DNA of 51,522 nt from Cytophagaceae bacterium (GTDB lineage Bacteria; Bacteroidota; Bacteroidia; Cytophagales; Cytophagaceae): the NCBI GenBank assembly GCA_025455005.1, contig JALONH010000027.1, forward strand, positions 1 through 51,522. The letters run 5' to 3'. Made by a program: the position numbers and the translations under genes. The notes beneath the pieces are model-generated. The model was not told where the DNA came from and did not search any database. It worked only from the letters and a program-made list of their open reading frames with translations. This document shows, one piece after another, positions 14,521 through 26,013 of this stretch (positions are counted from its first letter, which is position 1; the number at the start of each line of letters is the position of its first letter).

Positions 14521-15093
14521 ATGAAAGATAAAGTAAACATAGATTTTATTGGGCTTTTGTTAAAACTGGTTTATGCCATTATTCCGCTTGTCGGCATGTT
14601 ATATGCTCACTGGAATGTATATACCATTGTTTTTTTATTTGCAGCAGAAACGGTATTTATTGGAGTGCTTCATTTTATTCGACTTCAACTATCGAAATCA
14701 CCCGGATCTAGTCCATATTTTTTCTTACTTCATTATGGGATATTTGTTGGTGTTCAAACGATTTTGTTAGTGGTATTCTTTTGGCCGGGGGATCGTTGGG
14801 ATTCAAGGGAATTTATACAAGGATGTTTGAGTATAGGTGTAGGTCTGTTGATTCAATTTACACATCGTTATCTAACGGATAAAACATTCACAGCGAAAGA
14901 GGCGAGTGCTATACTTTTAGTACCTTATGTACGAATATTTATTCAACAATTTTTTATTATAGTATGTGGAGCGTTTGTACTTGGGGTAGAGCACCCAAAT
15001 GACTGGTTAATAGCAGGTTTTTTTGTAGGATTTAAACTCCTGTTTGAAATACTTTTTCTACTATATAATCCATTAAAAAATATCGATCAATAA
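14521..15093 (+). CDS. Polytopic membrane protein, DUF6498-like
   Basis: The product has 190 residues with five to six hydrophobic helices. The opening pattern (a helix, then HWNVYTIVFLFAAETVFIGVLHFIRL, then FFLLHYGIFVGVQ) resembles DUF6498 proteins, which carry the W...E...N/H and HYG marks. The function is unknown. A perfect hairpin terminator follows directly after the stop codon. Confidence 0.75.
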   Translation: MKDKVNIDFIGLLLKLVYAIIPLVGMLYAHWNVYTIVFLFAAETVFIGVLHFIRLQLSKSPGSSPYFFLLHYGIFVGVQTILLVVFFWPGDRWDSREFIQGCLSIGVGLLIQFTHRYLTDKTFTAKEASAILLVPYVRIFIQQFFIIVCGAFVLGVEHPNDWLIAGFFVGFKLLFEILFLLYNPLKNIDQ

Positions 15094-15125
15094 AAAAAGT
15101 CTCACCTTTCGATGAGACTTTTTTT
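15092..15125. terminator. Bidirectional hairpin terminator between the DUF6498-like gene and the tRNA-Leu region
   Basis: A perfect 13-bp stem (AAAAAAAGTCTCA against TGAGACTTTTTTT) encloses an 8-base loop. The A/T runs make it a good terminator in both directions: for the plus-strand gene ending at 15093 and for the minus-strand tRNA ending at 15127. Half of this terminator is repeated at 15465-15485. Confidence 0.85.
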
Positions 15126-15146
15126 GTACCCGAGGCGGGACTTGAA

Positions 15147-15166
15147 CCTGCCTGCCGGCAGGCAGG
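15147..15166. repeat. Perfect 20-bp palindrome inserted in a tRNA T arm
   Basis: CCTGCCTGCCGGCAGGCAGG is its own reverse complement. It sits exactly between the 5' T stem and the T loop of tRNA-Leu copy B. The undisturbed junction is seen in copy A (15486-15497), so the 20 bases are a clean insertion, ambiguous by one base, with no target duplication visible. Its GC content (80 %) is far above the surroundings. Confidence 0.9.
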
Positions 15167-15205
15167 CCCGCACGATCGTTGACGGATCACAGGATGTTAA
15201 GTCCT
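15167..15205. repeat. Direct repeat copy of the tRNA-Leu middle section (partner at 15493-15531)
   Basis: Thirty-nine bases match 15493-15531 with one mismatch, in the same orientation. They cover the anticodon arm, the variable arm and the 5' T stem. The mismatch changes the anticodon loop base after UAA and lets this copy pair with the flank before it (GATGTT against AACATC). Confidence 0.9.
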
Positions 15206-15464
15206 TAAAACATCTTATTTTTTAATCTTTCTTTTCCAATTCCTGCCTGATTTCCAATACTTTTCTCTACTTCTTGCAGATAGTCTATCTTTACATTCTT
15301 CCAAATAAATCAACTCAAATGGAGCATATGGCCTCGTTGTTTTCTCTCGTCCTTTATTATGTCTTTTTATCCGCTCCTCTACTTCTCTCGTTATTCCTAC
15401 ATAGATGTAGGACTTTTGTACACTTGAAATTGCATAAACGAAATAGGTCATGGAGATGCTATTT
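15206..15464. mobile_element. Candidate GIY-YIG nuclease insertion between the two partial tRNA-Leu copies
   Basis: This 259-base segment is the unique sequence between two blocks of duplicated tRNA-Leu/terminator sequence. It holds little more than one 78-codon GIY-YIG nuclease gene. The flanks are repeats: 39 bp of tRNA on both sides (15167-15205, 15493-15531) and 21 bp of terminator (15089-15109, 15465-15485). Copy A lacks the 30 bases corresponding to 15110-15139. The mobile nature is inferred from this architecture; no known transposon ends are present. Confidence 0.55.
15215..15451 (-). CDS. Stand-alone GIY-YIG nuclease domain protein
   Basis: The 78 residues are essentially one GIY-YIG domain: the GIY-type strand FVYAISS (4-10), the YIG-type YVGIT (17-21), the catalytic-type Arg in TREVEERIKRHN (21-32) and the metal-binding Glu in RSREKYWKSG (60-69). 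The ending (NWKRKIKK) is typical of UPF0213/YhbQ-like short members, so the protein is complete. I use the ATG at 15451. The frame stays open upstream through tRNA-Leu copy A to 15553, which I take as accidental. GIY-YIG enzymes cut DNA in repair (UvrC), restriction and homing; the placement inside a broken tRNA suggests a homing-like role, which is inference. Confidence 0.85.
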   Translation of the reverse strand: MTYFVYAISSVQKSYIYVGITREVEERIKRHNKGREKTTRPYAPFELIYLEECKDRLSARSREKYWKSGRNWKRKIKK

Positions 15465-15485
15465 AATAAAAAAAGTCTCACCTTT
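15465..15485. repeat. Half-terminator repeat (partner at 15089-15109)
   Basis: Twenty-one bases identical to the left arm of the downstream terminator are joined directly to the T loop of tRNA-Leu copy A. The other arm of the hairpin and the tRNA 3' end are missing, so it cannot act as a terminator here. It marks one edge of the duplicated block. Confidence 0.85.
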
Positions 15486-15559
15486 ACTTGAACCCGCACG
15501 ATCGTTGACGGATCACAGGATTTTAAGTCCTGCGTGTCTACCAATTCCACCACCCGGGC
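15486..15559 (-). pseudogene. tRNA-Leu(UAA) 5' part, copy A, lacking the 3' T stem and acceptor strand
   Basis: On the minus strand the copy begins with acceptor GCCCGGG. It has a normal D arm, an anticodon arm CAGGA-CTTAAAA-TCCTG (anticodon UAA), a class II variable arm, the 5' T stem GCGGG and the T loop TTCAAGT. It then runs straight into half-terminator sequence. The missing CCCGC and CTCGGGT strands exist only in copy B. A functional tRNA-Leu(UAA) must therefore be encoded elsewhere, or be restored here by recombination or processing. Confidence 0.8.
15493..15531. repeat. Direct repeat copy of the tRNA-Leu middle section (partner at 15167-15205)
   Basis: Same 39-bp block as 15167-15205 with one mismatch, 326 bases apart and in the same orientation. 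Recombination between the two would delete the nuclease gene but keep the palindrome in the T arm. Confidence 0.9.
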
Positions 15560-15610: not shown

Positions 15611-15686
<76 letters not shown>

Positions 15687-25890: not shown

Positions 25891-26013
25891 GTAATCAATT
25901 TATATTTCCCGATTGACGGGTCAGGATGTAGCACCTTAAATTCCAATTGGTTAGATAGGTTGCTAGAGGTTCCAAGAGCCTGTTCTCTCCCCTCTTCTTT
26001 ATAAATCAATTAC
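25891..26013 (-). promoter_or_regulatory. SAM-I-type riboswitch in the metX leader
   Basis: The minus strand carries the SAM-I core: GAAGAGGGGAGAGAAC, then GGAACCTCTAGCAACC, then AAGGTGCTACATCCTGACC. The P1 strands are 26000-26013 and 25891-25904, which pair over 14 positions (two G-U). P4 is the CCCG/CGGG hairpin. Downstream, AATCGGGAA (inside the riboswitch) can alternatively pair with TTCCCGATT (25865-25873), followed by a U-rich stretch, as an expression platform. Binding of SAM should lower metX expression. The identification is from motif recall, not a covariance search. Confidence 0.85.

Follow-up and report, generated by a model that had tools for sequence, protein, structure and literature searches.

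The tRNA genes of many Bacteroidota contain a unit that spans about 310-345 bases and encodes a single small nuclease; it is apparently a selfish element. The unit is widespread and real, and it is best read as a variant of the homing endonuclease elements. In the interpretation that we favor and consider probable, the element inserts at a fixed position within a tRNA gene and brings along a new tRNA end, while the old end is left behind, plugged by a hairpin. A 51,522-nucleotide contig of a Cytophagaceae bacterium, which was analyzed as a whole and is referred to below as the window, likely holds a degenerate copy of such a tRNA-invading homing element. The literature that we searched by title and abstract opening, with no preprints and few subscription papers among it, gave no report of this unit in bacterial chromosomes.

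Organization of the locus in the window

On the minus strand of the window, an intact tRNA-Gly(GCC) is followed by a partial tRNA-Leu(UAA) (copy A), half of a terminator, a GIY-YIG nuclease gene, a second partial tRNA-Leu (copy B, 15205-15126) and the full terminator (Table 1). An earlier note on this DNA had described a tRNA-Leu(UAA) that is split and partly duplicated around a minimal GIY-YIG gene; this description was confirmed, the ORF matching PF01541 with an E-value of 4e-18, and the counts given there all hold. Copy A (15559-15486) passes directly into AAAGGTGAGACTTTTTTTATT (15485-15465), which is half of the terminator. The two copies have in common a 39-nt stretch with 97% identity (38/39 nt; 15531-15493 versus 15205-15167) and a second stretch of 21 nt with 100% identity (21/21; 15485-15465 versus 15109-15089), and 30 nt of copy B (15139-15110) are absent from copy A. 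Between the copies is a 259-nt segment that is nearly filled by the 78-codon ORF (15451-15215). Copy B had been described as running from the anticodon arm to the 3' end, and this extent is right; the copy is not simply complete, however, and a perfect 20-bp palindrome in its T arm, CCTGCCTGCCGGCAGGCAGG (15166-15147), which separates the T stem (GTGCGGG) from the T loop (TTCAAG), had been overlooked.

Table 1. Features of the tRNA-Leu locus in the window
Feature	Position	Strand	Basis or remark
tRNA-Gly(GCC), intact	15611..15686	-	ARAGORN and Rfam
tRNA-Leu(UAA) copy A, acceptor 5' strand to T loop	15486..15559	-	Sequence; Rfam 27.9 bits
Second half of terminator, same as 15109-15089	15465..15485	-	Repeat family D3
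GIY-YIG nuclease gene, 78 codons, nuclease domain only	15215..15451	-	PF01541
tRNA-Leu copy B, anticodon arm to T stem 5' strand	15167..15205	-	Repeat family D1
Hairpin plug of copy B, a 20-bp palindrome separating T stem from T loop	15147..15166	-	At the same place in relatives
tRNA-Leu copy B, T loop to 3' end	15126..15146	-	Taken as the displaced native 3' end
Complete terminator hairpin past copy B	15092..15125	-	Inverted repeat I1

Neither copy was called as a tRNA by ARAGORN, and the Rfam score of copy A is below the 29-bit cut-off. Because dozens of other loci show the same anatomy, the arrangement in the window is more than chance. The rebuilt 3' end of copy A would have been lost through the 30-nt deletion, which begins in the T loop.

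The view that the locus is neither an intron nor an integrase island was borne out. At the gathering threshold, the Rfam families detected were tRNA and a SAM riboswitch for the window and tRNA alone for 16 related loci; no intron family was among them, and a group I intron was rejected. The riboswitch (RF00162, 66.8 bits) is elsewhere in the window, at 25897-26007 on the minus strand. A tRNA-integrated island was rejected as well, the 259-nt segment having room for the nuclease gene alone and none for an integrase.

The earlier note had proposed a check for another tRNA-Leu(UAA), and no intact one was found anywhere in the window's assembly by tRNA calls, by Rfam scoring or with a relative's tRNA-Leu as query. 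The Rfam scoring covered 150 of the 214 tRNA candidates and was complemented by the search with the relative's tRNA-Leu, which besides copy A returned only one 22-nt match. The lack of an intact tRNA-Leu(UAA) in this assembly was counted against homing. Among the called tRNAs of this 45-contig draft, tRNA-Phe, tRNA-Ile(GAT) and tRNA-Ala(TGC) are likewise absent, and UUA is the commonest Leu codon (536/1174, or 46%, in the window's 26 long ORFs). For these reasons we considered that an intact tRNA-Leu(UAA) may be located in an assembly gap, or that the deletion in copy A may be an assembly fault. The same gaps among the called tRNAs, and the missing tRNA-Leu(UAA) in spite of the frequency of UUA, would fit an assembly artefact in the window, which we nevertheless regard as extremely improbable, since the same kind of unit occurs in a single-contig genome (G321). 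As to assembly fault, only the 30-nt deletion of copy A is doubtful. At L030 and L033, the end of a tRNA-Leu(CAA) coincides with base 1 of its contig (G000:C9:1-85), and a degenerate tRNA-like piece of 24.5 bits is close to another contig end (G000:C4:11008-11076).

Association of the nuclease with tRNA genes

To obtain relatives of the nuclease, named genomes were scanned with an alignment of 10 nucleases, and the analysis was performed on the best 80 of 254 relatives. Among these 80, an intact tRNA was located within 500 bp of the nuclease in 73 cases; for each of these 73 the nearest one was a tRNA-Leu or tRNA-Ser, and the tRNAs listed were all on the strand of the ORF. This coupling, which we count in favor of homing, upholds the earlier claim that the unit is very small, consists of one gene and is linked to tRNA genes. 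The remaining seven of the best 80 relatives have, by eye, tRNA pieces that are interrupted (plugged) by a palindrome.

For 75 of the best 80 of 254 relatives, those with a tRNA within 700 bp, we searched the other side of the ORF for a second, partial copy of that tRNA. Such a copy was detected in 67 of the 75 loci, compared with 1 of 375 in a control with tRNAs of another amino acid, so that a new tRNA end on one side of the ORF and a displaced native end on the other is the usual arrangement in this set. Two observations were counted against homing: no partial copy was detected at the threshold used in 8 of the 75 loci, and for 16 of the 135 nucleases used for the tree, no intact tRNA is located within 700 bp on the same strand. 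It had also been proposed to look for the nuclease beside other tRNA genes. Besides Leu it adjoins Ser tRNAs, and more distant nucleases of the window's order adjoin Arg, Asp, Glu, Pro and Ala tRNAs, several of them with similar anatomy; beside other distant nucleases of that order no tRNA copy was seen. The nuclease is not a fixed neighbor unrelated to tRNA genes, which the earlier note had named as the finding that would speak against its claim. At one locus (L186), a full-length tRNA-Leu(CAA) plugged at nucleotide 24 is located downstream of the ORF, and no intact copy was called in the 3.6-kb locus.

Two layouts were distinguished. In the D-arm layout, a partial 5' piece is followed by the ORF and an intact tRNA, and the piece breaks after nucleotide 24 of tRNA-Leu(CAA) in 40 loci. 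In the T-arm layout, an intact tRNA is followed by the ORF and a partial 3' piece, which begins 23 nt from the 3' end of tRNA-Leu(UAA) in 15 loci and 21 nt from it in three. These breakpoints are accurate to 1-2 nt, because the ends of the plug match tRNA letters. The breakpoint and hairpin counts refer to 92 loci with a detectable copy, or to 89 after L139, L140 and L141, which are in genomes already counted, and L215, whose protein is the same as that of L080, were dropped. On a tree built from 135 nucleases, those with like target and layout group together, with 47 changes compared with a shuffled mean of 79.5 and 0 of 200 shuffles as low, indicating that the nuclease lineage goes with the site; 45 of the 128 inner branches of this tree are poorly supported, and the window's protein (P0001, the nuclease ORF minus its start codon) was left out of it.

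The sequences beyond the tRNA were compared for copies that reach the tRNA end (33 D-arm and 33 T-arm loci). For 29 of the 33 D-arm loci, no similarity was detectable between the leader of one copy and that of the other, which is what a rebuilt end brought in by the unit would give. The duplicated target that had been postulated thus exists as a repeat, but on account of these dissimilar leaders it is better read as a replacement tRNA end together with a displaced native end. In 20 of the 33 T-arm loci, by contrast, the two flanks past the tRNA resemble each other, in a few of them through a T run alone; such likeness fits local duplication or later conversion too and was counted against homing. 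In a promoter count that proved too crude to be of use, TTTG was present in the 30 nt before the copy in 28 of 55 displaced and 17 of 55 restored copies.

Empty sites, filled sites and tandem arrays

Empty sites in relatives, which the earlier note had suggested looking for, were found. In genus g8 of the window's family, tRNA-Gly is followed by an intact tRNA-Leu(UAA) in three genomes and the site is empty; this Gly-Leu order is conserved in relatives, empty sites included. Presence and absence of the unit at one conserved site in close relatives were observed in two genera. In the first, genome G051 has an intact tRNA-Leu followed by three units at 345-bp spacing, each composed of a terminator, a 77-aa GIY-YIG ORF and a tRNA-Leu piece from the anticodon loop to the 3' end, with its terminator, and the palindrome in this piece is at the same T-arm point as in the window. 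Of 30 loci fetched from this genus (40 genomes searched), 5 are filled and 25 empty; eight of the empty loci share the downstream flank of G051, within 270 bp of the tRNA in six of the eight. In the second genus (19 genomes searched, 17 loci), 3 loci are filled, 1 has an ORF-less plugged piece, 12 are without the unit ORF and 1 is without a tRNA call. Here the units are on the 5' side of tRNA-Leu(UAA). The local leader has stayed with the displaced 5' piece, and the rebuilt tRNA is located behind the ORF. The two tRNAs are separated by 386 nt in G185 versus 76-81 nt in five empty genomes.

Tandem units at 345-bp spacing occur in three genomes (G051, G231 and G383), and ORF-less plugged tRNA pieces were found beside intact Leu, Cys or Gln tRNAs (L147, L149, L154, L171, L285-L287 and L291). 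The hairpin at the breakpoint, the 5'-end layout, the tandem arrays and the ORF-less forms were all missed by the earlier note. Several ORF-less loci have, by eye, a second fold-back hairpin built from anticodon-arm sequence.

Tandem arrays and T-arm flanks that are alike on both sides would also be produced by a resident nuclease, i.e., a long-standing neighbor of the tRNA whose cuts yield tandem duplications of the tRNA end and the ORF, with nothing arriving from outside; SegB of phage T6 offers a precedent. We consider this explanation unlikely, given that the same flank adjoins empty sites in sister species, that the leaders of most D-arm loci are dissimilar, and that the nuclease is patchily present, in 45 of 390 genomes of the window's order at E 1e-9, the window's genome counted in.

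The hairpin plug

At the break, the tRNA piece typically carries the hairpin CCTGTCTGCCGACAGGCAGG. The threshold set for folding at the break was passed by 48 of 55 loci with the D-arm layout and by 29 of 34 with the T-arm layout, together 77 of 89, compared with 25 of 460 stretches chosen at random from these regions. The plug is at the same nucleotide in many genera. Its sequence differs between some targets: by eye, the inserts at Ser-GGA (L117), Pro (L123) and Asp (L135) are different, partly imperfect palindromes. That the hairpin is kept while its sequence differs fits recognition or protection by structure.

The palindromes might instead belong to a dispersed repeat that is independent of the unit and simply accumulates in tRNA pieces without function, in which case the plug would be no part of the element. 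The palindrome is present in 54 of 380 genomes of the window's order (the reversed control gave 0 in all), 21 of 30 palindrome loci, taken one per genome, are away from tRNAs and 9 beside them, which we count against homing, and some tRNA pieces hold several or nested palindromes. An independent repeat would have to account for the identical nucleotide position in many genera and for the other palindromes found at such sites, and we judge it rather improbable. In the window's 2.94-Mb assembly, the palindrome of copy B is a single copy with up to two mismatches allowed (reversed-pattern control 0), which rules out an ordinary dispersed repeat for this assembly alone, not for all genomes. By hand count, the palindrome occurs in 32 of 43 genomes with the nuclease versus 22 of 337 without it. 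The 22 were counted against homing, and the association as such may be due to kinship, because family f19 accounts for most of both. A class-wide scan for the nucleotide-24 plug, with up to two mismatches, gave 5 of 395 genomes, four with tRNA pieces and one of these with the ORF, so that this form is uncommon in the genomes sampled from the class. No paper was found for the plug sequence strings in the literature searched.

Two groups of loci with palindromes were noted besides. In L158 and L159 (position 1501), the palindrome is at the same place with similar flanks, and no tRNA was called within 1.2 kb. In L304-L306, and also upstream in L087, apparent tRNA-Gly 3' pieces with a T-arm hairpin, TCCCGAAG..CGGGA, and no ORF were seen by eye; these tRNA-Gly-like pieces are located between tRNA-Gly and tRNA-Leu.

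Properties and distribution of the nuclease

P0001 is a bare nuclease domain with no further domain. Its AlphaFold2 model has a mean pLDDT of 88, and the nearest neighbors in a fold search were UPF0213, SLX1 and the catalytic domain of I-TevI (best E 0.0018, probability 1.00; none at or below 0.001). A profile of 19 relatives matched the structures of UPF0213 (E 1e-13), SLX1 (E 1e-6) and, weakly, I-TevI (E 0.003). Across 19 diverse members, Y5, Y16, G18, R26, H30, N31 and E62 are invariant, and the domain presumably keeps its catalytic residues among them. The dN/dS of the nuclease is low, with values below 0.35 in 20 of 22 finite pairs and dS above 1 in many; this was counted in favor of homing. 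Both pairs above 0.35 involve L251, which was compared without gapped alignment, and one further pair gave no finite dS. NCBIfam holds no family for P0001, and PHROG, considered with regard to kinship with SegB of phage T6, gave weak matches only (E 0.008 to 0.0095), some of them named homing endonuclease.

With a tRNA-like piece alongside most of the nucleases, one may think of an addiction module, in which the nuclease would be a toxin that cleaves tRNA as RNA, with the plugged piece of tRNA serving as its RNA antidote or as a decoy. The predicted fold of copy B, in which the T stem still forms around the hairpin (z -1.9; 9 of 200 shuffles fold as well), would suit such a role. We regard it as highly unlikely: the nearest folds are those of GIY-YIG nucleases, whose members act on DNA, the PADLOC matches are weak (best E 0.0013), and the insertion within a tRNA gene with a rebuilt end would be left unaccounted for.

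The best 80 of 254 relatives are mostly from Bacteroidota, chiefly Flavobacteriaceae, and include a few MAGs labelled Ignavibacteria, Balneolia, Chlorobiota, Neomarinimicrobiota and Rhodobacteraceae. Named relatives in Flavobacteriia are up to 73% identical, versus 61-62% at best in the window's order as sampled, and phyla are mixed on the nuclease tree, in part from MAGs. The 18 other genomes searched of the window's family gave no relative at E 1e-8. P0001 had no match at E 1e-5 among 50,697 phage records or among plasmid records, and a search of viral contigs with alignment A3 gave one locus; phage or plasmid cargo was ruled out on the absence of a match in either record set.

Comparison with known systems and proposed mechanism

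Integrative islands at tRNA genes duplicate the tRNA end and restore the tRNA. The unit resembles them in both respects and differs in its size of about 310-345 bp, which leaves no room for an integrase. Homing-endonuclease insertions reportedly occur in rRNA genes of CPR bacteria, so that both cases have a homing nuclease in a bacterial RNA gene, rRNA there and tRNA here. With I-TevI, an intron GIY-YIG enzyme, and with UPF0213 and SLX1, the nuclease has a fold in common and weak to clear sequence kinship; unlike these, it occurs here with no intron and as the nuclease domain alone.

As far as the available parts of the sources go, the closest tested protein is SegB of phage T6, a free-standing GIY-YIG homing nuclease beside tRNA genes whose cuts fall within tRNA genes and lead, through recombination, to amplified tandem segments (PMC13096335). 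A GIY-YIG nuclease adjoining tRNA genes and tandem segments are common to both systems; SegB is phage-borne, and the part of its report at hand describes no rebuilt tRNA end with a hairpin-plugged remnant (PMC13096335). In our reading, the SegB motif RAWTSGAAC given there would fit the T arm on the other strand. The closest principle, again from the accessible part of the source, is that of the mobile mitochondrial endonuclease ORFs that carry a replacement gene end in Allomyces atp6 and Glomus atp6, atp9, cox2 and nad3, the Glomus atp9 ORF being a GIY-YIG endonuclease (PMC3630166). As described there, an endonuclease ORF in an essential gene brings a new 3' end and displaces the native one. 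Those fungal ORFs are in mitochondrial protein genes, whereas the units described here are in bacterial tRNA genes, at both 5' and 3' ends; set against the fungal ORFs as that source portrays them, the very small nuclease and the junction hairpin are features of the present units.

The mechanism that we propose was put together by combining SegB, which cuts in tRNA genes, with the mitochondrial ORFs, which supply a replacement gene end. The 78-aa nuclease would cut an intact tRNA-Leu gene at a fixed point, in the case of the window at the border of T stem and T loop (GCGGG^TTC), the site marked by the hairpin. The break would then be repaired by recombination from an element-bearing chromosome, with the tRNA sequence on either side serving as homology, and the unit would thereby be transferred. 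The repaired gene would gain the ORF and a fresh tRNA end past the cut, rebuilding a working tRNA on one side of the ORF, and the old tRNA end would remain across the ORF as a fragment with the hairpin at the cut point, where the hairpin may protect by spoiling the target in the leftover piece. D-arm elements would act at the 5' end, the local leader staying with the displaced fragment and being followed by the ORF and the rebuilt tRNA.

Against homing of this kind, the rebuilt tRNA presents the target sequence at the presumed cut point, which leaves the carrier's escape from its own nuclease unaccounted for. In one genus, the T loop reads TTCAAGT in 6 of 12 carriers versus 1 of 25 non-carriers (Fisher p 0.002, uncorrected for kinship); the count omits carrier G318, because no intact tRNA-Leu was called there. 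TTCGATT fits the SegB motif and TTCAAGT does not, and the latter T loop is a hint only as to how carriers might escape.

More tentatively, and as a view that we hold to be possible but not probable, the units may constitute a separate class of bacterial mobile elements, hairpin-tagged tRNA-rebuilding homing units, with ORF-less derivatives that would be mobilized in trans by an SLX1/UPF0213-like nuclease recognizing the hairpin and a tRNA arm. Such units would then probably be among the smallest autonomous homing units.

Implications

The natural series of empty, filled, tandem and ORF-less sites provides material for testing the homing cycle. If our reading is true, it would account for the GIY-YIG genes and tRNA pieces that are found next to tRNAs, and it would provide very compact nucleases whose targets are readable from the genome. 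The tRNA genes of many Bacteroidota would then be host to a single-gene parasite that persists by supplying a replacement for whatever it breaks.
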